Shown: one piece after another, positions 4,592 to 39,589 of the stretch
Layout of the letters: every line of letters begins with the position of its first letter
Position numbering within the stretch: the first letter of the stretch is position 1
Assembly (NCBI GenBank): GCA_947167125.1
Contig: CAMVGT010000002.1
Location: 46,685 to 110,684 of the forward strand
Direction: 5' to 3'
Origin: an uncultured Erysipelotrichaceae bacterium
Lineage (GTDB): Bacteria > Bacillota_I > Bacilli_A > Erysipelotrichales > Erysipelotrichaceae
DNA: 64,000 nucleotides
Made by a program: the position numbers and the translations under genes
Notes under the pieces: generated by a model
Told to the model about the DNA's origin: nothing
The model's input: the letters and a program-made list of their open reading frames with translations, nothing else
Databases searched by the model: none

Positions 4592-4805
4592 AAAGGGCAT
4601 CCTCATATGTAAGGACGCCCTGAGCGTGGTACCACCTTGCTTGCTTCTCAAATACGTAACGTGTATGAACGGTTTCTCTTACTGCAATGTTCAGAGTAAC
4701 TAGCTCCGGGACGACTTCATTTCCCCTGTCCGCCTGCTTTCACCAAACGCAGGCTCTCTGTCAGATCCAGTCAGGAAATTACTCCTCCCCTTCGTCGCTT
4801 GCTAA
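4592..4805 (-). promoter_or_regulatory. T-box leader 1; apparent specifier GTC (Val)
   Basis: Reverse strand has AGAGAGCCTGCGTTTGGTGAAAGCAGGC (stem I apex), GGTGGTACCACGC T-box sequence, terminator GGGCGTCC-N10-GGATGCCC-TTTCTTT; specifier-loop-like AGTA / TGAA-GTC-G. Confidence 0.9.
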
Positions 4806-7212: not shown

Positions 7213-7485
7213 AAATAAAACACCCGTCTCAATCTGCTTGAGACGAGTGTATAAATTCACCCGCGGTACCACTCAAATTGCCGTAAAAATACAGCCGCTC
7301 ATCAGGATCCAACAATCCCTAAGTCTGTAACGGGACTTCCCGGGATATATCTACTTGTTTCCGTTCGTATATCCAGCTCAGAAGTGATGGTCTTTACGGA
7401 TGTCTGCTGCCGGTTTTCACCGCCCACCGGCTCTCTGTGAAGCTTCCAATCCTAACGTCTTCATCGCAGCTTTTTTCGTTTGCTG
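7213..7485 (-). promoter_or_regulatory. T-box leader 2; apparent specifier ATC (Ile)
   Basis: Reverse strand: AGAGAGCCGGTGGGCGGTGAAAACCGGC, ...ACC-ATC-ACTTCTGAGCTGG, GAGTGGTACCGCGG, terminator ACACTCGTCTCAA-GCAG-ATTGAGACGGGTGTTTTATTTT. Confidence 0.93.
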
Positions 7486-27234: not shown

Positions 27235-30027
27235 TTATTCGGGAATATATTCTTCAAACGGTGTATAGCGGTCTGTACCGTAGATATCGCCGAGCTGATA
27301 GCCGAACAGCATTCTGTCCGCGCTCACATGGATATCGCTGATTTCAAGATCTGCATTTCCGCTGCCGTCATCTTCCACAACAAGCTGATCTCCGAGGAAA
27401 TAAGCATCATCGAACGATCCTTCATATGTGTAGTAATCACAGATGAAGTCGATTGTGTCACCCGGATTGATCGGCAGAAGTTTGCCGTCCACATTGGTCT
27501 CATAGACTTTTTCAGCACCGAGGACATGGCCTGTTTCATATTCATTGGAGAATTCGACAAGCAGATGCACTTCTTCGCCGTTGAGCATTGCCGGGATATA
27601 GCCTGTGGTTCTGTAATTTGTATCGCTGACATATTCATCTGTCATCATGTAATACGGAACCAGCTGGCCATTGAGGGCAAGCCACATGCCGTCATAGTCA
27701 ATCATGAGATCGCCGTCATCATCGAATTCGAAGATATTGTCAGCACCGAGATCAATATATCCGCTGCCGTCATCTACCCAGACATTCAGCTTGACGCTCT
27801 GAATCAGCTTCCATTCTTCCGGACTCAGCGCAAGAACCTTACCGCCGTTCTTGTCGCTCAGAATCAGATTCTCGGAATCGATATGCGCTCTTCCGTACAA
27901 TGCGGAGAAGAGATCGATAATGCTTGAATCATAAGAGCTGCTGGATCCAAGCAGAGCATCCAGAGCGGAAGAGGAACCGGAACCTCCGAGCAGCTGGGAA
28001 AGATCAAGCTGCTGATAGGAAGTGCCGTTAGAAACGGAACCGCCGCCGAGCAGGTTAAGCAGTGAGTTGGATGTGCTGCTGGACGCAATCTGTCCGGAAG
28101 CCGCAAGGGATGCGAAGCTTCTGACAGCCTTTGCATAGTCCGTATCGAAGTCAATGTTGTTATAAATATTCAGGATGGAGTTGACCATCTGTGTACGCCG
28201 GTATGGGAAATAGATGGAAACACCGTAGGCGTTTGTGATGTTCTTTGTACGGTTGTATTTGATGCAGGACTGCAGCGCATTGATCAGTGCTTTGCTTTCG
28301 GAAGTATTCAGCGTGGAGCAGAAGTGAATCAGGTCAATCTGATCCAGCTTGTTGGACTGCGCGAATTCTCTTGTCGCGCTTCTTGCGTCCGCAACATTCT
28401 GATAGCTGGATGTGCTGACATCGCTGGAGATCTTCTTCGCGAATGCGGAGAGCGCGGAAGGAACAGTATTCTTGAATTCCGCAAGATCAATCAGTGACAG
28501 TGTATTCTTGTCAGCGCTTGTCGCACCCTGCTGTCTCTTTGTGACAAAGTCATCGATGATCGCCTGACCGATGTCAAGAGAGGACATGGAGCTGTTGGAA
28601 GCGAACTTGGTCAGCCAGTCTGTATAGTACCAGCCTGTTCCCGGTTCTGTTTCTTCGGAAGCCAGCAGATAGTCGCCATAAGGTTCTACGGCAACAGCTG
28701 TTTCCATATTTGCCATTAAGCATGCGTCAAAGCCGATGATATCGAATTTGATTCCGCCGGCATCCAGTGCCTTGGAGATCTGATCGACAGGCATGGATCC
28801 GTTGGGATACAGTTCATCATAGCCATAGCCTGTAACAGATCCTCCGCCATGATCCCAGAAGACAAGGATATAGCGGTTTGCAGGATAGTTCGCAGCGCCC
28901 CAGCGGATGAATTCAGCCAGTGTTCCGGCATCGGTCATCGCCTTTCTGCCGAGGTTTCTTTCCAGCGGTTCAAGACCGTTGTCCACAACTCTCCAGTACT
29001 GGTTGGTACCGGCAGTTACAGCGTTGTTTCTCCATGTTTTGGTTCCGCCTGTTTCAACGATGATGTTGATCTTGTCGGAATGTGCGGCGGCAGCCATTTC
29101 GGTCAGGTCCTGGGTTGCCATTCCGTAATTGGATTCCAGATCGGTTCCGCACATGTAAACCAGCATTGTGACCTGGTCATTTCCGTTTCCGAGCAGGGTT
29201 GTATATTTCTTTCTCGAACCGGTTGCGACATTGGTGTTGACTGCTGTTGAAGACGCGTCAACATATGTGTTGGCATTGGAGATCGGTGTACCGAAATTAA
29301 ATGTGCTGGCAGTGTTCTGACCGCCGGACGGATTTGTATTTGTGCTGGTATCGGTGGATGCCGGTGTGTTGCCGGAATTACCCGAATTGCCTGAAGAAGA
29401 CGGTGTTGAGCATCCGCCTCTGCCGAACATGAACCATAAGACAAGAAGCGCGATCAGAAAAAATAATAATCCGCTTCCGCCTCCTCTCTTCCTTCCGCCG
29501 CCTGAATTTGAATTGAGCGGATAGGAATTCTGCTGCGATGCATGGGACTGCTGAGAAGAAGGCTGTGAATGCACCGCATGAGAAGACTGCTGTGAGCTGT
29601 GGGCATAATTGTTTGAATTGTTCAGCGCGCTCAGCAGGTCATCCATGGAAATATTATTGTTGTTGGTGATATTTGTGTTGGAGCTGGCCGCCTGATTCTG
29701 CAGCATGTTCAGCAGGTCGCTGATATCAATATTATTATTGTTCGTTACCTGTGTATTGCTGGACTGCAGACCGTTCAGCAGATCGCTGAGGTCAAAGCCG
29801 CCGCCGGATGCGCGTGTACCGGACTGCTGTGAACCGTTCTGCTGACGCAGAATCTTCATCACATCGTCTAAATCAAAAGCATCGGATTTTCCGCTTCCGA
29901 ATAAACCGGTCTGCTCACCGCGTCCGCTGTTGCTGGACTGCTGCTTTCCGAGTCCTTCTCCGCGGCGTTTTGCTTCCGCGCTTTTGCCGGAATCATTTCT
30001 CTTTCTGGAGTGTGGTCTTTCTGACAT
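27235..30027 (-). CDS. C11 (clostripain-like) cysteine peptidase with N-terminal low-complexity/repeat region and one TM segment
   Basis: YILVFWDHGGGSVTGYG (His) and FDIIGFDACLMANMETA (Cys); TM GLLFFLIALLVLWFMFG; start taken at MSERPHSRKRN. Confidence 0.88.
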   Translation of the reverse strand: MSERPHSRKRNDSGKSAEAKRRGEGLGKQQSSNSGRGEQTGLFGSGKSDAFDLDDVMKILRQQNGSQQSGTRASGGGFDLSDLLNGLQSSNTQVTNNNNIDISDLLNMLQNQAASSNTNITNNNNISMDDLLSALNNSNNYAHSSQQSSHAVHSQPSSQQSHASQQNSYPLNSNSGGGRKRGGGSGLLFFLIALLVLWFMFGRGGCSTPSSSGNSGNSGNTPASTDTSTNTNPSGGQNTASTFNFGTPISNANTYVDASSTAVNTNVATGSRKKYTTLLGNGNDQVTMLVYMCGTDLESNYGMATQDLTEMAAAAHSDKINIIVETGGTKTWRNNAVTAGTNQYWRVVDNGLEPLERNLGRKAMTDAGTLAEFIRWGAANYPANRYILVFWDHGGGSVTGYGYDELYPNGSMPVDQISKALDAGGIKFDIIGFDACLMANMETAVAVEPYGDYLLASEETEPGTGWYYTDWLTKFASNSSMSSLDIGQAIIDDFVTKRQQGATSADKNTLSLIDLAEFKNTVPSALSAFAKKISSDVSTSSYQNVADARSATREFAQSNKLDQIDLIHFCSTLNTSESKALINALQSCIKYNRTKNITNAYGVSIYFPYRRTQMVNSILNIYNNIDFDTDYAKAVRSFASLAASGQIASSSTSNSLLNLLGGGSVSNGTSYQQLDLSQLLGGSGSSSALDALLGSSSSYDSSIIDLFSALYGRAHIDSENLILSDKNGGKVLALSPEEWKLIQSVKLNVWVDDGSGYIDLGADNIFEFDDDGDLMIDYDGMWLALNGQLVPYYMMTDEYVSDTNYRTTGYIPAMLNGEEVHLLVEFSNEYETGHVLGAEKVYETNVDGKLLPINPGDTIDFICDYYTYEGSFDDAYFLGDQLVVEDDGSGNADLEISDIHVSADRMLFGYQLGDIYGTDRYTPFEEYIPE

Positions 30028-30179
30028 AATAATCCCTCCCGTAGCTGTTTTTATTATATCTAAAAAAATCGGGTTAAGATGAAAAAGCAATTGTCACAGA
30101 ATGCGTTTTCAGACAAATATTAAACAAAGTACGCATGTTGGTTAACAAAGTCTTCTGATTTGAACTATGCGGAAAACAA

Positions 30180-31591: not shown

Positions 31592-31619
31592 ACAAAAAGG
31601 CGGCATTTCCGCCGCCTTT
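31592..31619 (-). terminator. Intrinsic terminator after small ORF
   Basis: Reverse strand AAAGGCGGC-GGAAAT-GCCGCCTTT-TTGTC. Confidence 0.75.
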
Positions 31620-31640
31620 GATGATCTGTACTGCAGAACG

Positions 31641-31760
31641 TTAAGCTCTTTCGATGGAGCTGAATGCCCACAGTACTGTATTCCAGACAGATTCCTCTTC
31701 GAGGTTTCTGCTTTCCTTCGGTTCACCGAATAAAATTGCTGTTTTCATGAGTGTTTCCAT
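31641..31760 (-). CDS. Unannotated small protein, 39 aa
   Basis: METLMKTAILFGEPKESRNLEEESVWNTVLWAFSSIERA; AAGGTG RBS-like element, upstream promoter and downstream terminator. Confidence 0.6.
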   Translation of the reverse strand: METLMKTAILFGEPKESRNLEEESVWNTVLWAFSSIERA

Positions 31761-31860
31761 AATATATATCACCTTGACTTTCGTCATTTGCCTTTCTTGA
31801 TTATTACGCATCCGTGCGTTATATCTGATCAGATCTCAGGACTTTTTCCTGACACTGATC

Positions 31861-31888
31861 ATTATAGGTAAATGGTTTGCAAGGTCAA
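31861..31888 (-). promoter_or_regulatory. Sigma-A-like promoter for the small ORF
   Basis: Reverse strand TTGACC-N16-TATAAT. Confidence 0.7.
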
Positions 31889-31977
31889 TGGATTCTCTGA
31901 AAATATTTTCAGAAATTTTTGCAGAAACCGTTTTCATTTGTGAAAAATCTGAAAGCCTTTACAATCTTTCTACTAAA

Positions 31978-32020: not shown

Positions 32021-33454
32021 TTAAAGGCCGAAATAACGGGCTGCGTTATTGTAGCTGATACCTTCAACGATCTTCTTCAGGGAAGCATCGAAGTTCGGAT
32101 ATTCGCCGTTTTCAACCCAGTTGCCGATCATGTTGCACATAATACGGCGGAAGTAGTCATGACGCGCATAGGAGAGGAAGGAACGGGAGTCTGTCAGCAT
32201 GCCGACGAAGTTGCCCAGCAGGCCGAGGTTTGCCAGAGCTCTCATCTGGTCTTCCATACCGCTCTTTGTGTCATTGAACCACCATGCGGAACCAAGCTGA
32301 ATCTTGCCCGGTACTTCATCAGACTGGAAGCAGCCTAACAGTGTTCCGAGAAGTTCATTGTCAACAGGGTTCAGCGAGTAAAGAATGGTCTTCGGACATT
32401 CGTTTGTATAGTCCAGTTCGGACAGCAGGTTTGCAATATCCTCACCGCAGGAGTTTGTGGCGATCATATCGAAACCGGTATCCGGTCCAAGACGGCGGTA
32501 CATGCGCTCATTTGCGTTTCTGTGGCAGGAATAGTGCAGCTGCATGGCAATGTTCAGGCGGTGATAAGCCTTGCCGAGCGCTACCAGAACAGCTGTCTGG
32601 TATTCTTCTGCTTCTTCCAGAGTGATGACTTCGCCATTCATGACCTTTTTGAAGGAAGCGTTGATGTCTGCCATGTCGCCCTTGCGGAACGGAATGTAAT
32701 CCAGACCGTGATCACTTGCGCGGCATCCCATTTCAGCGAAGAATTCCAGACGCTGAATCAGAGCGTCGATGACTTCTTCAGCAGAATCCAGAGATTCCTT
32801 GCCTACGCTTGCGGCCAGCTTGCCGATATATTCAGCGAAGCCTTCCTTGTTGATGTTGATGGCCTTGTCAGGTCTGAAGGAAGGGCATACCTTCACAGTG
32901 ATGGAAGGATCTTCCTTGATCTTCTGGTGCCATTCGAGGGAATCGATCGGATCATCGGTTGTGCCGATGAATGCGACGTTGGACTTTTTGATCAGTCCGC
33001 GGACTGTCATATCCGGATCATTCTGCAGCATGTCGTTGCACTTGTTCCAGATCATTTCAGCTGTTTCGAGTGTGAGCGGTTCTTCAATACCGAAGTATTT
33101 GTGAAGTTCCAGGTTGCACCAGTGATACATCGGGTTGCCGATTGCCATTTCCAGTGCTTCCGTGAATTTCAGGAAACGCTCATAGTCAGGTTTGTCGCCT
33201 GTGATGTAGTCTTCGGGAGTTCCGTTGGAACGCATAACTCTCCACTTGTAGTGGTCGCCGAAGTAGGTTCCGTCCGGGTTCTTTCCGCCCAGCCAGACTT
33301 CAGCCAGATTTCCGAAACGTCTGTCTTCATAGATTTCTTTCGGGGAAATGTGGCAGTGATAGTCTACCAGCGGCATCTTGTCCGCATAGTCATGGAAGAG
33401 ATGCTGAGCGGTTTCTGTTTCCAGAAGGAAGTTTTTGTCCATAAATGCTTTCAT
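32021..33454 (-). CDS. uxaC: Glucuronate isomerase (uronate isomerase)
   Basis: LVDYHCHISPKEIYEDRRFGNLAEVWLGGKNPDGTYFGDHYKWRVMRSNG...WWFNDTKSGMEDQMRALANLGLLGNFVGMLTDSRSFLSYARHDYFRR. Confidence 0.95.
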   Translation of the reverse strand: MKAFMDKNFLLETETAQHLFHDYADKMPLVDYHCHISPKEIYEDRRFGNLAEVWLGGKNPDGTYFGDHYKWRVMRSNGTPEDYITGDKPDYERFLKFTEALEMAIGNPMYHWCNLELHKYFGIEEPLTLETAEMIWNKCNDMLQNDPDMTVRGLIKKSNVAFIGTTDDPIDSLEWHQKIKEDPSITVKVCPSFRPDKAININKEGFAEYIGKLAASVGKESLDSAEEVIDALIQRLEFFAEMGCRASDHGLDYIPFRKGDMADINASFKKVMNGEVITLEEAEEYQTAVLVALGKAYHRLNIAMQLHYSCHRNANERMYRRLGPDTGFDMIATNSCGEDIANLLSELDYTNECPKTILYSLNPVDNELLGTLLGCFQSDEVPGKIQLGSAWWFNDTKSGMEDQMRALANLGLLGNFVGMLTDSRSFLSYARHDYFRRIMCNMIGNWVENGEYPNFDASLKKIVEGISYNNAARYFGL

Positions 33455-33466
33455 AATAATTTACCC

Positions 33467-34552
33467 TTACCTCTTGATGTCGTAGTTCATATTCATCAGA
33501 TTCCGGATGGATTCAACGTCATCGACGATGTTGCCGTCGCCATGGATTGTATGCTTGATGACACTGGACGCAACCGCGAAATTGATCATGTCCATCGGTT
33601 TGTAGTTATTCATCATCGCATAGATCAGGCCGCTGGCAAAGGCGTCGCCGCCGCCGACTCTGTCCAGAATATTGAATGTGAATTTCTTACTTTCGAATGT
33701 ATGTCCATCATACCACATGTACGCCATCAGGCTGTTTTCGCTTCCTGAATGCGCATAGCGGACATGGCGGGCAATGCATTTGATATTCGGATATTTTTCG
33801 ATAAAGCGCTGGAACACTTCATCCTGCTCTTCATAGCTCGGATGCATGGAAATTCCGTCCTTGTAATCTCCTTTGGAAGGATCCTCATCATCCTTGTACA
33901 GATGATACGGTTCAATTCCGAACAGAACATCCACATACGGCAGACACTGTGTGCAGTAGTCGCGCGCTTCTTCCCATGTCCACAGTTTGGAGCGGAAGTT
34001 GCCGTCGAAGCTGACTGTCAGACCCTTTTCCTTTGCGGTCTTCATCAGGCGCAGAATGAATTCGCCGCAGCTTTCGCTTAATGCGGGAGTGATTCCGCTG
34101 AGATGGAGCCAGTCATAGCCTTCCAGCAGTTCTTCGGCATTGATTGTCGAAAAATCAAATTCGGAAATTGCGCTGTGCTTGCGGTCATATGTGACACGCG
34201 AAGGACGGATTCCGTATCCGGTTTCCAGATAGTAGACGCCCATTCTGTGGGTCGGTGTCTGCTCTGGTGTCGAGAGAATAATCGGTGTGCAGTGGACATC
34301 ATTGGATCTGAGCATACGGACCGCACTCTTACCCAATGAGTTATCCGGTACAACACTGAAGAATGTGCTGTCAATTTTCAGGTTTGCCAGGGCAAGGGCA
34401 ATATTCGCTTCCGAACCGCCGTAGCTGATTTCGAAGGTTGTAGCGACACGGATTTTGTCATAGTTGGGCGGAGTCAGTCTCATCATGACTTCACCGAAAG
34501 TAATGAATTTCTTGCCATGATTTGTGTTCAGCAGAGGATTATGATGTTCCAT
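33467..34552 (-). CDS. PfkB family sugar kinase (2-keto-3-deoxygluconate kinase-like)
   Basis: ITFGEVMMRLTPPNYDKIRVATTFEISYGGSEANIALALANL; LDRVGGGDAFASGLIYA. Confidence 0.85.
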   Translation of the reverse strand: MEHHNPLLNTNHGKKFITFGEVMMRLTPPNYDKIRVATTFEISYGGSEANIALALANLKIDSTFFSVVPDNSLGKSAVRMLRSNDVHCTPIILSTPEQTPTHRMGVYYLETGYGIRPSRVTYDRKHSAISEFDFSTINAEELLEGYDWLHLSGITPALSESCGEFILRLMKTAKEKGLTVSFDGNFRSKLWTWEEARDYCTQCLPYVDVLFGIEPYHLYKDDEDPSKGDYKDGISMHPSYEEQDEVFQRFIEKYPNIKCIARHVRYAHSGSENSLMAYMWYDGHTFESKKFTFNILDRVGGGDAFASGLIYAMMNNYKPMDMINFAVASSVIKHTIHGDGNIVDDVESIRNLMNMNYDIKR

Positions 34553-34592
34553 AACCGTTGCCTCCTATTTTCTAATCAGTTATTGCGGTTGA

Positions 34593-35621
34593 TCAGCGCT
34601 GGATTCTTCCGGATCCATCGCCTCCGGCGAGTTTTTCAACTTCAGCGACTGTTACCATGTTGTAGTCGCCTTCGATTGTATGCTTGAGAGCAGAAGCTGC
34701 AACTGCGAATTCAACTGCAGCTTGTGTATTCTTGCCGTTCAGCAGTGCGTAAATCAGACCGCCGCCGAAGCTGTCGCCGCCGCCGACTCTGTCGATAATG
34801 CGGAGCTCATACTTCTTGGAGAAGCAGTATTCATCTCTTGCGGCATCATACAGCATTGCGCTCCATCCGTTGTCGGACGCGCTGTGCGATTCACGCAGTG
34901 TGATTGCGACCTTTTCAAATCCGAATCTGTCCGCAAGCTGCTTTGCGACGGACTTGTATCCTTCATGATTCAGCTTGCCGCCGTAGATATTTGTCTCTTC
35001 CGCTTCAATGCCGAAGACATCCTTTGCGTCTTCCTCATTGGAAATGCAGACATCGACATACTGGCAGAGATCGCTCATCGCCTGTCTTGCCTGCTCGCGT
35101 GTCCAGAGCTTGCCGCGGTAGTTCAGATCGCATGAGATTTTGATTCCCTTTGCCTTGGCAGCCTTGCATGCCTGACGTGTGATTTCAACAGCATTCTCAC
35201 CTAAAGCCGGTGTGATGCCGGTGAAATGGAACCAGTCTGCCCCTTCCAGAATTTCATCCCAGTTGAAGTCTTCCGGCTTTGCCAGCTGGATCGCGCTGTT
35301 TGCACGGTCATAGATGCATACGCTTCCGCGCTGGGAAGCACCTTTTTCATTGTAGTAAATACCGACTCTGTCACCGCCGCGGACAATCTTTGATGTATCC
35401 ACGCCGTATCTGCGCAGGCTATTGACTGCCGCCTGGCCGATGGCATGCTCGGGAAGCTTGGTGACAAATGCCGCATCCAGGCCATAGTTTGCCAGGGATA
35501 CAGCGACATTGGCTTCGCCGCCGCCGAATGTGAATTCAAGAGTATTTGCCTGTACAAAGCGTTCATAGTTGAACGGCTGCAGACGGACCATGAGTTCACC
35601 GAATGTTACAACTCTTGTCAT
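34593..35621 (-). CDS. PfkB family sugar kinase (2-keto-3-deoxygluconate kinase-like), tandem paralog
   Basis: VTFGELMVRLQPFNYERFVQANTLEFTFGGGEANVAVSLANYG; IDRVGGGDSFGGGLIYALL. Confidence 0.85.
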   Translation of the reverse strand: MTRVVTFGELMVRLQPFNYERFVQANTLEFTFGGGEANVAVSLANYGLDAAFVTKLPEHAIGQAAVNSLRRYGVDTSKIVRGGDRVGIYYNEKGASQRGSVCIYDRANSAIQLAKPEDFNWDEILEGADWFHFTGITPALGENAVEITRQACKAAKAKGIKISCDLNYRGKLWTREQARQAMSDLCQYVDVCISNEEDAKDVFGIEAEETNIYGGKLNHEGYKSVAKQLADRFGFEKVAITLRESHSASDNGWSAMLYDAARDEYCFSKKYELRIIDRVGGGDSFGGGLIYALLNGKNTQAAVEFAVAASALKHTIEGDYNMVTVAEVEKLAGGDGSGRIQR

Positions 35622-35731
35622 AATTTACCTCTGAGTCTGTGTTCTTATAATCTGTCAGAACAGATCATATTCATATTGTTATAAATGCTGTATGGATTGC
35701 AAAAATTGCAGTCTGTGCACATTGTGCCCAA

Positions 35732-36586
35732 TCAGAGCCCGTTATAGAGATTCTGAAGATAGAGTCTCGACTGTACAGCATTGTCGTTGACTGTGTTTTC
35801 CAGAGTGGCCTGAATAAACGGCTTTCTCTGTTTCATGAAGGAGAGAATCTGCCTGTAATCCATATTGCCGGTTCCCGCCGCAATGCTCTTGAGGTCATTG
35901 CCTTCCGGGACAAAGTCCTTCAGATGGACAACAGCGATATCATCGCCGAGGAGTTCGATCGTTCTTGCGAAGATTTCTTCCCGTTCATTCATGTTTTCAA
36001 CACAGAGAAGATTGACCGGATCAAAGATGATCCTGAGATTGCGGCTGCCGATGGCATCCAGTACAATCCTTGCCCTCTCGGGACTGTAGACAATGTGTTT
36101 CCAGACCGGTTCGATGGCCATGCTGACACCGTATTTTTCAGCGCATTCCACCACCGGTGCCAGACCCTTGATAAAGGTTTCCAGCGCCTCTTTGGAATGG
36201 GTGTTGGCGTCAGTTTTATACTCGGCATTCGGAGCACCGGTTTCAGTTCCGACAACCGATGCGCCGAGCAGAGAAGCAACCCGGATATTCCCGTAATAGC
36301 GTGACTGAATGTCTTTCAGCTTTTCAGGATCGGGATGTGCGAGATTCAGATAGCAGCCAAGGACTGCCACATCAAGTTCTTCTTTTTCAAACACCCTGCG
36401 GGTATAGCGGGCAAGCCCTTCCGTCAGAGCGCAGTTATCAAATGTATAGCCTTTGATGACTTTGGAATAGGCAAGATGAACACAGGAGAATCCTTCCTCA
36501 CGTGCTTTCTTTGCCCTTTCCTCCAGGGTCTGCAGTTCCGGTGCCAGCGATGCGTTGACATCATGCAGACGGATACCCAGCTGCAT
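35732..36586 (-). CDS. Sugar phosphate isomerase/epimerase-like TIM-barrel protein
   Basis: MSMAIEPVWKHIVYSPERARIVLDAIGSRNLRIIFDPVNLL; IAVVHLKDF. Confidence 0.8.
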   Translation of the reverse strand: MQLGIRLHDVNASLAPELQTLEERAKKAREEGFSCVHLAYSKVIKGYTFDNCALTEGLARYTRRVFEKEELDVAVLGCYLNLAHPDPEKLKDIQSRYYGNIRVASLLGASVVGTETGAPNAEYKTDANTHSKEALETFIKGLAPVVECAEKYGVSMAIEPVWKHIVYSPERARIVLDAIGSRNLRIIFDPVNLLCVENMNEREEIFARTIELLGDDIAVVHLKDFVPEGNDLKSIAAGTGNMDYRQILSFMKQRKPFIQATLENTVNDNAVQSRLYLQNLYNGL

Positions 36587-36609
36587 AGCGATCTCCTTTC
36601 TTATTTAAA

Positions 36610-38084
36610 TCAGAGAACGACGCCGTCTTTGAAGATTGAAATCTCACGGAAGCCTTTGCGTTCTGTGCATGTCTTCTGACCGGATGCTGTCTTGATGACA
36701 AGATCCAGCAGATCCGAACCTGCTTCATCGAGAGTTTTATCTCCGTCAGCGACAGCTCCGGCATTGAAATCAATCCAGTTTGCCTTCTTTGTCGCAAGCG
36801 GTGTGTTGGTCGCGATCTTCATGGTAGGTGCCGGTGCGCCGAACGGTGTTCCGCGTCCGGTTGTAAAGAGAATCATATGTGCGCCTGCTGCTGTAAGAGC
36901 AGTTGCGGATACCAGGTCATTGCCCGGTCCGTAAAGCAGGTTGAGTCCCTTTGTTGTAACCTGTTCAGCATATCCGATGACATCGGCGATCGGAGCTGTT
37001 CCGCCCTTCTGTACGCATCCGCAGGATTTGTCTTCCAGTGTGGTGATACCGCCCTGCTTGTTGCCCGGGGAAGGATTGTCATAGACAACTTCATTATGGG
37101 AAATGAAGTAGTTCTTGAATCCGTTGAGCATGCCGGCAGCCTTGTTGAAGACTTCTTCATTGACGCAGCGGTCAAGCAGGAAGCTTTCAGCACCGAACAT
37201 TTCAGGCACTTCCGTCAGAATGGTTGTGCCGCCCATCGCAGTCAGAAGATCGGAGAAACGGCCGACAGTCGGGTTGGCTGTAATGCCGGAAAGCCCGTCG
37301 GATCCGCCGCACTTCATGCCGACAACCAGTTCACTTGCGCTGATTTCCTCACGCTTGAACTGGGAAGCGAATGCGGCGCATTCCTCGAGCAGTTTTCTGC
37401 CTGCTTCAAATTCATCTTCAACCTGCTGGCAGGTAAGGAATTTGACACGTTCAGGATCGTAATCGCCCAGTTCCGCAAGGAACTGTTCATGGGTCAGGTT
37501 TTCGCATCCAAGGCTCAGCACCAGAACAGCGCCGGCATTGGGATGGCGGACCAGGGAAGCCAGAAGCTTTCTGGTCTGGGCATGGTCATGGCCGGTCTGG
37601 GAACATCCGAACGGATGTGTGAATGTATACAGGCCGTCGATGGAACCTGTTACCAGATCCTGGTTGTCTCTGACCAGCACTTTTGCCACATCATTGACAC
37701 AGCCAACAGTCGGGATGATCCAGATTTCATTGCGGATCGCAGCCCTTCCGTCCTTTCGGCGATAGCCCATGAATGTGCGCGGCTCAAGCGGCTGCTGAAC
37801 CGGATTCTTCGGGCAGTATGTATATTCAACTTCACCGGACAGGTTGGTTGCCATGTTGTGTGTATGAACCCAGTGTCCCTGCTGAATGTCCGCTGTCGCG
37901 TGTCCGATCGGCAGACCGTATTTGACGATTGTATCGCCTTCATGGATGTCCTTCAGCGCCGCTTTGTGGCCCTGGGGAATATCCTCCTTGATTTCAACAC
38001 CGCTGAATACAGTACCGGCTTTGATCGGATGCAATGCTACAGCAACATTGTCGGTTTCATTGATCCGGATGAAATCAAGCATCT
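36610..38084 (-). CDS. uxaA: Altronate dehydratase (UxaA family)
   Basis: MLDFIRINETDNVAVALHPIKAG SAF-like N-term; FMGYRRKDGRAAIRNEIWIIPTVGCVND; GGSDGLSGITANPTVGRFSDLL. Confidence 0.92.
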
Positions 38085-39589
38085 GCTTCTCCCTTCTCAA
38101 GAGCCTTTGCGTATGCCGCAAGAGCTCCTTCGCTGCGGATTAATTCAAGTGCCTTGCAGGCTGCTTCTTCAAATCCTTCGATGGAAGTCAGATCCATACC
38201 CCACATGCGTTCATCTGTCATGACTGCATGTGTCAGTTCAGCGGCTGTATCATTTCTGTGGTCATAGTAGAATTCGAGAACGAAACGGTCATCGCTGACT
38301 GTGTATGTGTTTCCTGCAGCTCTCCTGCATACAAGACCTGCATCTGTGAGTTCCTGGATGTCATTGGAATAGAATGCCATGTATGCACCGAAGCTTGTAG
38401 CCAGGCACTTCGGCAGTTTTCCTGTCTTTTCCTTGTATTCAATCAGGCTGGGGAGGTCTCTTGCACGCCACTTCGATGTGGAGTTGAGGGAGATGCTCAT
38501 CAGTTCATGATTGACGAACGGGTTGTTGAAGCGGTCCTGAACAGCGCTTGCGAAATTCATCAGATCGTCTTTGTCAAGCGGCAGTGTCGGGATGACTTCG
38601 TCATACAGCATGGTGTTCATGAAGTTCAGAACTGTTTCATTCTGCATGCAGTCGCGGACGATATCGAATCCGGCAAGGTAAGCACCGAGAACAAATCCTG
38701 TATGAGCACCGTTGAGAATGCGGACTTTGCGCTTCTTGTACGGTGTGACATCCGGTACAACCGGGCAGTTCAGGCCGGCCTTCTTGAACGGAAGCTTGTC
38801 TTCCAGCCATGCCGGGCCTTCAATATTCCAGACGCCGAATACTTCGCCTACATCGAGCAGCGGATCGGAATAGCCGTGCAGCTGTTCGAGACGTTCAACT
38901 TCCTTCGGATCGCGGATGCGGCCCGGAACAATTCTGTCTACGAGTGTGGAGCAGAACAGGCAGTCTTCATTGACATATCTGCGGAATTCATCGGACAGTT
39001 CCCACTGGTCGATATACTGGTTGACGCACTTGAGCAGTTCTTTGCCGTTGTTGTCGATCAGTTCGCATGACAGAATGACAAGACCTTTCTGTCCGGCATT
39101 GAAGCGTTCCAGGAGAACCTGTGTCAGTTTGCCCGGGAATGAGGAAGCAGGTCTGTCTTCCTTCTGGCATGCAGGATCATAAACGATACCTGCTTCTGTT
39201 GTATTGGAGACAACATATTCGAGATCTGCAGAGCGTGCAACTTCCATCATTGCGTCATAATCAGCATCTGAATACGGATCAAGACATCTTGAAACAACGG
39301 AAATCACTCTCTTGCGGTCTACTTTTTCACCGTTTTCACGGCCGCGCAGATACAGTGTATAAAGGCCTTCCTGTTCATTGATCAGGCCTGCAAGTCCTCC
39401 TCTGATCGGGCATACAAGAACGCATTTTCCGTTCCAGCCTGCCTTTTCATTGGACACATCAAACCAATAGTCAGCAAATGCACGCAGGAAGTTTCCTTCG
39501 CCGAACTGAAGTACCTTTTCCGGAGCCTTCTCCAGAATATATCCGTCATAGCCGGATTCTCTCAGTACTTCATAATTTATTTTTTTCAT
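38075..39589 (-). CDS. uxaB: Tagaturonate reductase (mannitol dehydrogenase family)
   Basis: KVLQFGEGNFLRAFADYWFDVSNEKAGWNGKCVLVCPIRGG...KVRILNGAHTGFVLGAYLAGFDIVRDCM. Confidence 0.92.
   Translation of the reverse strand: MKKINYEVLRESGYDGYILEKAPEKVLQFGEGNFLRAFADYWFDVSNEKAGWNGKCVLVCPIRGGLAGLINEQEGLYTLYLRGRENGEKVDRKRVISVVSRCLDPYSDADYDAMMEVARSADLEYVVSNTTEAGIVYDPACQKEDRPASSFPGKLTQVLLERFNAGQKGLVILSCELIDNNGKELLKCVNQYIDQWELSDEFRRYVNEDCLFCSTLVDRIVPGRIRDPKEVERLEQLHGYSDPLLDVGEVFGVWNIEGPAWLEDKLPFKKAGLNCPVVPDVTPYKKRKVRILNGAHTGFVLGAYLAGFDIVRDCMQNETVLNFMNTMLYDEVIPTLPLDKDDLMNFASAVQDRFNNPFVNHELMSISLNSTSKWRARDLPSLIEYKEKTGKLPKCLATSFGAYMAFYSNDIQELTDAGLVCRRAAGNTYTVSDDRFVLEFYYDHRNDTAAELTHAVMTDERMWGMDLTSIEGFEEAACKALELIRSEGALAAYAKALEKGEADA

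Follow-up and report, generated by a model that had tools for sequence, protein, structure and literature searches.

A conserved 39-codon gene with tandem cre-type boxes in Erysipelotrichaceae: a putative carbon-controlled small protein

Overview of the gene

The window analysed here, a stretch of 64,000 nucleotides from an uncultured Erysipelotrichaceae bacterium, contains a 39-codon gene whose family counts 15 homologous genes, spread over 13 of the 70 genomes compared in its genus (Erysipelotrichaceae/Solobacterium-like bacteria). Its leader carries hairpins that are conserved in the family, two cre-type boxes lie at fixed spacing upstream of its promoter, and the genome encodes a CcpA-like protein. 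We read the unit as a carbon-controlled gene for an intracellular partner-binding protein and give this reading a probability of about 0.5. The anatomy of the gene and promoter is well supported and the identity of the regulator is probable; that the protein has a partner is what we infer. The parts of the unit, from 5' to 3' on the minus strand, are as follows (coordinates are those of the window).

31950-31963 (-), upstream cre-like box TGTAAAGGCTTTCA; 13/14 matches to TGWAANCGNTNWCA; centre at -102.5
31923-31936 (-), cre-type box TGAAAACGGTTTCT; 13/14 matches to TGWAANCGNTNWCA; centre at -75.5 from the predicted start
31861-31888 (-), sigma-70-type promoter TTGACC-N16-TATAAT; 11/12 matches
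31836-31852 (-), 5'-terminal hairpin TCAGGA-AAAAG-TCCTGA; altered stems in 15/15 readable leaders
31806-31819 (-), middle hairpin ACGCA-CGGA-TGCGT
31775-31786 (-), hairpin TGAC-GAAA-GTCA with a GAAA loop, abutting the Shine-Dalgarno site; equivalent in 13/15 leaders
31770-31775 (-), Shine-Dalgarno-like AAGGTG; AGGAGG or GGAGA at the same place in relatives
31641-31760 (-), open reading frame of 39 codons plus TAA; homologues, selection, six-frame and profile matches
31594-31619 (-), intrinsic terminator with a 9-10 bp stem and a T run

A first-pass annotation of this DNA had described a complete gene with its own promoter, leader and terminator. The homologues, purifying selection on the peptide, the same architecture at unlinked loci and a leader structure that is kept despite sequence change all support that description. 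The AAGGTG, ORF and strong terminator that it listed are present on the minus strand, and the gene is indeed missing from the 60-aa ORF track because its ORF is only 39 aa. The functional unit extends to about 31963, beyond the 31888 given previously, because the two cre-like boxes, which had been overlooked, lie upstream of the -35 element.

The ATG is at 31760 and the stop codon TAA at 31643-31641 (-), and the encoded peptide is METLMKTAILFGEPKESRNLEEESVWNTVLWAFSSIERA. The terminator stem (31619-31596) is followed by T's and has a predicted energy of -16.6 kcal/mol. Most of the relatives' ORFs are likewise followed by terminators, the sequences of which are unlike one another.

A small-protein family confined to one genus

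A six-frame search of 100 relatives with the peptide as query gave matches in ten further genomes of the same genus (E 1e-14 to 2e-4), and a profile search recovered 14 genes in 13 of the 70 genus genomes (E 1e-18 to 1e-23). Genomes are numbered below, G000 being the genome of the window and the others the related genomes compared. The fifteenth gene is a diverged paralogue in G030. Its profile match (G030:C39, E 0.011) was retained because a single-sequence match links it to G035 (E 7e-6) and because it has the same promoter. Other matches within the genus with E above about 0.02 (in G044 and G055, for example) were attributed to chance, being located within long frames or limited to part of the profile. 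Named relatives are Erysipelotrichaceae bacterium NK3D112, the Erysipelotrichaceae MAGs S24M_St_67, S2M_St_7 and SIG229, and Solobacterium sp. RGIG2592.

Outside the genus, no homologue was convincing. The genomes searched from the rest of the order gave a single weak and partial match (G280), and no convincing one came from a sample of 397 genomes of the class or from the plasmids, phages and viral contigs searched. The search of genome contigs used a narrower alignment, which finds closer members only. Searching with the whole unit as DNA yielded no relative, and nothing beyond matches of 25 bases, the family having diverged too far for this method. The peptide had no credible family match in Pfam, NCBIfam, PHROGs, PADLOC or PDB. 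Judged from these searches, this appears to be a genuine, genus-restricted and previously unannotated small-protein family.

The genes fall at more than one kind of locus. In the group A members of the window, G037, G104, G047 and G052 the small gene is downstream of uxaC, which encodes glucuronate isomerase, with three genes between the two in G104. In G057, also of group A, it is upstream of kdgK. Group B genes are located elsewhere, for example behind a HIT-type gene (called from the HxHxH motif only) in G035 and G103. A uxaC gene is present in 12/13 carriers versus 31/57 non-carriers (Fisher p 0.009). This hints at a connection with uronate use, although differences in genome size and completeness may confound it. 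In the window, 32021-38121(-) is a hexuronate catabolism cluster, encoding an altronate dehydratase-like protein, a TIM-barrel isomerase-like protein, two PfkB-type sugar kinases and glucuronate isomerase. On one contig (L056, G014:C573) the small gene is present as two diverged copies, separated by 2.5 kb and placed on either side of a lipoprotein-like gene, with tatA/tatC-like genes adjoining; the contig comes from a contaminated 5.2-Mb bin and its host species is uncertain.

Family members are 37-41 aa long. The consensus of a 13-sequence alignment is MKTLMEAAALFGEPxYxExLxExSxWNTVLWAxxSL, and T3, P14 and W31 show no variation in this alignment. Compared in pairs, group A members have pN/pS values of 0.26-0.50; the values are 0.00-0.04 among G035, G103 and G005, and 0.19 for the pair G041/G008; these values indicate purifying selection at the protein level. 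The earlier annotation had named lack of conservation, or a disrupted frame in close strains, as grounds for doubt. Conservation was found, and the frame is generally intact, the exception being G052, where the gene is apparently split by an insertion at the start codon. From its homologues and its pattern of substitution, the 39-residue ORF is almost certainly a real gene and not a chance ORF. The G052 gene is divided between contigs: promoter and leader reach only as far as the start codon on one (L109, G052:C50), and another (L046, G052:C26:1-216) opens with the remainder of the ORF, which lacks the ATG. The break looks like the result of either a mobile insertion at that codon or an assembly join.

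Leader RNA

The leader runs for about 94 nt from the predicted start to the ORF, and two hairpins in it are common to the family. A 5'-terminal hairpin is present in 14/14 leaders scored (shuffle mean 2.9, maximum 8), and a hairpin of 4-8 bp ending within 3 nt of the Shine-Dalgarno site in 12/14 (shuffle mean 2.2, maximum 6); the shuffles preserved base composition only and the relatives are non-independent, and these statistics serve as a guide. The leader of G052, added to the 14 scored, has both. The stems themselves differ among relatives, both at the 5' end (TCAGGA/TCCTGA, CGGAT/ATCCG, GCGTG/CACGC and GTCACGA/TCGTGAC) and beside the ribosome site (TGAC/GTCA, GCAGGA/TCCTGC and CGGCT/AGCCG), so pairing has been maintained through sequence change. 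The Shine-Dalgarno site is mostly outside the stems.

These comparisons alter the earlier picture of the leader in part. All three hairpins that had been proposed are present. The 5' hairpin, previously placed at 31837-31851, is one pair longer on each side (31852-31836). The middle hairpin is swapped for different hairpins at roughly the same place in other group A members. The third, the palindrome ATCTGATCAGAT / CTGATCAG (31823-31834), is not a conserved hairpin in the family. It lies just 3' of the 5' hairpin, and its sequence is conserved in G000, G037, G104 and G057; it is possible that CTGATCAG is a protein site, at the level of DNA or RNA. The earlier description did not list the hairpin next to the Shine-Dalgarno site (31786-31775), which belongs, with the 5' hairpin, to the two structures that the family conserves. 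No curated Rfam family matched the leader.

A 5'-terminal hairpin together with a second hairpin against the ribosome-binding site suggests, by analogy, that the small mRNA would be long-lived and well translated.

Promoter and tandem cre-type boxes

The promoter described previously is present as stated, with TTGACC at 31888-31883, TATAAT at 31866-31861 and a spacer of 16; it is the best site in the 5 kb scanned. Taking the predicted transcription start as 7 nt past the -10 element, a cre-type box is centred exactly at -75.5 in 10/15 family promoters (G000, G037, G104, G041, G008, G030, G035, G103, the G030 paralogue and G052). It is at -74.5 and -77.5 in the two G014 copies (G014b and G014a, respectively). 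The match of this box to the cre consensus is 12-13/14, and composition shuffles gave a mean of 0.14 promoters with a 13/14 box. A second box is usually present 27 bp farther upstream: it has the same position (-102.5) in G037, G104 and G052 and is aligned in group B. In the window this upstream box, TGTAAAGGCTTTCA, is without the central C of the CG. G057 retains the upstream-type box only, and G047 has no box at the scoring threshold. The G052 promoter was located later on another contig, where it follows a uxaC fragment; its boxes are at exactly -75.5 and -102.5.

We searched the 70 genomes with the tandem-box pattern. There were 12 matches, comprising nine family promoters, one separated half in G005 and two others that lie within coding sequence and look like chance; in the same genomes the reversed control gave 0 matches. 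Recovery of the family promoters is by construction, because the pattern was designed from known members, and what is informative in this search is that so few other places matched.

The cre box (L110, end of G005:C88) and the core promoter (L111, end of G005:C16) of G005 are on two contig ends. A short sequence, TTCAAAAG, is repeated where they part, which looks like the work of an insertion element coming between operator and promoter, and this separation is a possible natural test of the operator.

A palindrome-like sequence, AATTTTCTGAAAATWATTTTCA, lies between the cre box and the -35 element (about 31895-31921), is conserved upstream of group A genes and resembles a CodY box. Control by CodY was considered, since CodY-like boxes are present in group A (for example AATTTTCTGAAAATT in G037), and was rejected because codY is absent from the genus: CodY (PF06018) gave no match over the cut-off in the 70 genus genomes, and control genomes matched.

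The candidate regulator

One LacI-family protein encoded in the genome of the window (G000:C23, locus L082, 1155-2147) has CcpA as its best solved relatives (E 1e-56). Its best NCBIfam model is ccpA, with a score of 247.8 that is below the equivalog cut-off of 442. The genome has 56 occurrences of the cre core versus 21 of the reversed control, and the genomic cre sites inspected adjoin genes for a solute-binding protein, a LacI regulator and an aldehyde dehydrogenase. Two further cre sites adjoin putative transporter-like and decarboxylase-like genes. Sequence evidence of this kind makes CcpA the likely regulator of the small gene.

The boxes could instead be read by a dedicated, non-CcpA regulator of the LacI type, such as a uronate sensor, giving a response to a specific sugar. 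The tandem arrangement at -75/-102 is almost unique to the small gene, genomes of the genus encode several LacI-family proteins, and group A adjoins uronate genes, all of which would suit such a protein. However, box 1 matches the cre consensus at 12-13 of 14 positions, the genome encodes a CcpA-like protein and has many further cre sites, and there is no LacI gene adjoining the small gene at the inspected loci. We consider a dedicated regulator unlikely.

If CcpA is the regulator, activation is somewhat favoured over repression. In B. subtilis a cre upstream of the -35 element activates as a general rule, as in ackA, pta and ilvB (PMC3463425). The position of the boxes does not prove activation, because the lev operon is repressed with an upstream cre (PMC3463425). 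By this analogy, CcpA with its corepressor would bind the tandem boxes at about -75 and -102, and the promoter would most probably be activated when preferred sugars are plentiful.

Protein properties and proposed role

Structure models of the peptide show two helices, at residues 2-11 and about 20/25-38, with low confidence (pLDDT 69 and 65). They correspond to the segments MKTLMEAAxLFGEP and ExSxWNTVLWAxxSL. The net charge is -3 here and -1 to -5 in the family. The best 18-residue Kyte-Doolittle mean is 0.15 here and at most 0.66 in the family, and no family member has a transmembrane-like stretch.

We propose that a stable small mRNA would yield abundant protein, and that this soluble acidic protein of about 40 residues would bind a cytoplasmic partner and alter its activity. 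Reasoning by analogy, an intracellular partner-binding role is a somewhat better than even prospect. The partner would most likely belong to central carbon or uronate metabolism, as an enzyme or a regulator. A tentative extension, which we hold with clearly less conviction, is that the genus has an undescribed family of small proteins, activated by CcpA, which would signal the abundance of sugar and act directly on a central carbon or uronate enzyme to retune it.

The first-pass annotation had offered a signalling peptide, a regulator or a toxin. Regulation is the favoured one of the three, and the other two fare badly. A peptide exported to act outside the cell, as a signal or in the manner of a leaderless bacteriocin, would agree with the short length, the partly amphipathic, Trp-containing C-terminal helix and the patchy distribution within the genus. 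However, leaderless bacteriocins are typically cationic and all members here are acidic; moreover, there is no leader, signal peptide or other export signal by inspection, and no exporter or receptor is a consistent neighbour and no dedicated one was noticed nearby, which makes export very unlikely. A type I toxin or other host-inhibiting small protein is more improbable still. It would fit the size and the private promoter and terminator, but the hydropathy values given above leave no membrane-spanning stretch, PADLOC gave no hit, the ribosome site is not blocked by the predicted folds, a scan showed no antisense promoter of note, and there is no evidence of an antitoxin.

Two other explanations concern the transcript. 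In the window and in G037 the small gene is upstream of a GltA/GltD-like oxidoreductase gene on the same strand, and it could be a leader peptide or attenuator of that gene. This was rejected on synteny, because the downstream genes differ between genomes; the change of neighbours indicates that the small gene is its own unit. The peptide is also conserved over its full length under purifying selection, there is no codon run, and the terminator comes after the complete ORF, so that attenuation is hardly credible. A dual-function RNA has more in its favour. Here the 5' segment would base-pair with targets or bind a protein and the peptide would be a second product, as with SR1 and VcdRP. The transcript is short and free-standing with its own terminator, and the first 31 or so nt of the leader are near-identical in G000, G037 and G104, in which synonymous sites differ by 0.41-0.63. 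Against this, the conserved 5' segment is mostly a self-paired hairpin and is completely different in group B, the 3' part is unconserved, and there is clear selection on the peptide; we therefore regard a dual function as rather doubtful and return to the partner-binding protein as the preferred reading.

Comparison with known systems

Small proteins under global carbon regulators are known in a handful of cases, some of which directly modulate central enzymes (SR1P and VcdP). The gene described here would be an additional carbon-controlled case, with no apparent relation by descent; it resembles them in its logic, as argued by analogy, and no common origin is claimed. SR1P of Bacillus subtilis, encoded by SR1, is a 39-aa protein that binds GapA (PMC8152036, PMC7430163). 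It shares with the present gene its length, a short free-standing transcript, lineage restriction and carbon control involving CcpA (which is probable here). There is no evident sequence relation; the pattern of the present family matched no Pfam or NCBIfam model, and SR1P is reported from Bacillales only (PMC8152036). SR1 itself is repressed mainly by CcpN and has its CcpA site about 260 bp upstream, in contrast with the cre-type box at -75.5 here. Base pairing, a feature of SR1, would belong here to the doubtful dual-function reading. If the extension proposed above is right, this would be a Firmicute small-protein effector made at high sugar, the reverse of SR1P.

VcdRP of Vibrio cholerae is likewise a small RNA gene under a carbon regulator that encodes a small protein, the 29-aa VcdP, which binds citrate synthase (PMC8672173). 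It differs in its control by CRP, its Gram-negative host, its length and sequence, and in that its partner is known; tuning of a central enzyme is only proposed for the present family. CcpA-activated promoters of the ackA type also have a cre upstream of the -35 element, and ackA needs an additional conserved sequence upstream of its cre for full activation (PMC3463425). In the present promoters the distal element, at a distance of 27 bp, resembles a cre itself, and activation is predicted. The aprE leader of B. subtilis is described as a stable mRNA (Hambraeus 2002, cited in PMC3997798) and, on that description, resembles the present leaders in combining a 5'-terminal stem-loop with a ribosome-binding site. 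The present leaders have an extra hairpin abutting the Shine-Dalgarno site, and their stability is suggested by this analogy.

The regulatory unit is unusually tidy: its operators form a pair at a fixed distance, its two leader hairpins persist while their sequences turn over, and it ends in a terminator of its own. The gene is also an example of how conserved genes of gut Erysipelotrichaceae are hidden by a 60-aa ORF cut-off. Its chief interest is that it is directly testable, and a test in culture may be possible since the genome record of the carrier NK3D112 is not labelled as a MAG.

Other features of the window

Two T-box leaders, at 4608-4804 and 7236-7476 (-), score above the Rfam gathering threshold and were the only such matches in the window. 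A 951-aa protein is encoded at 27235-30090(-). Its N-terminal part is of low complexity and rich in Ser, Gly and Asn, and it has one transmembrane-like stretch and a region that is clostripain-like by eye.
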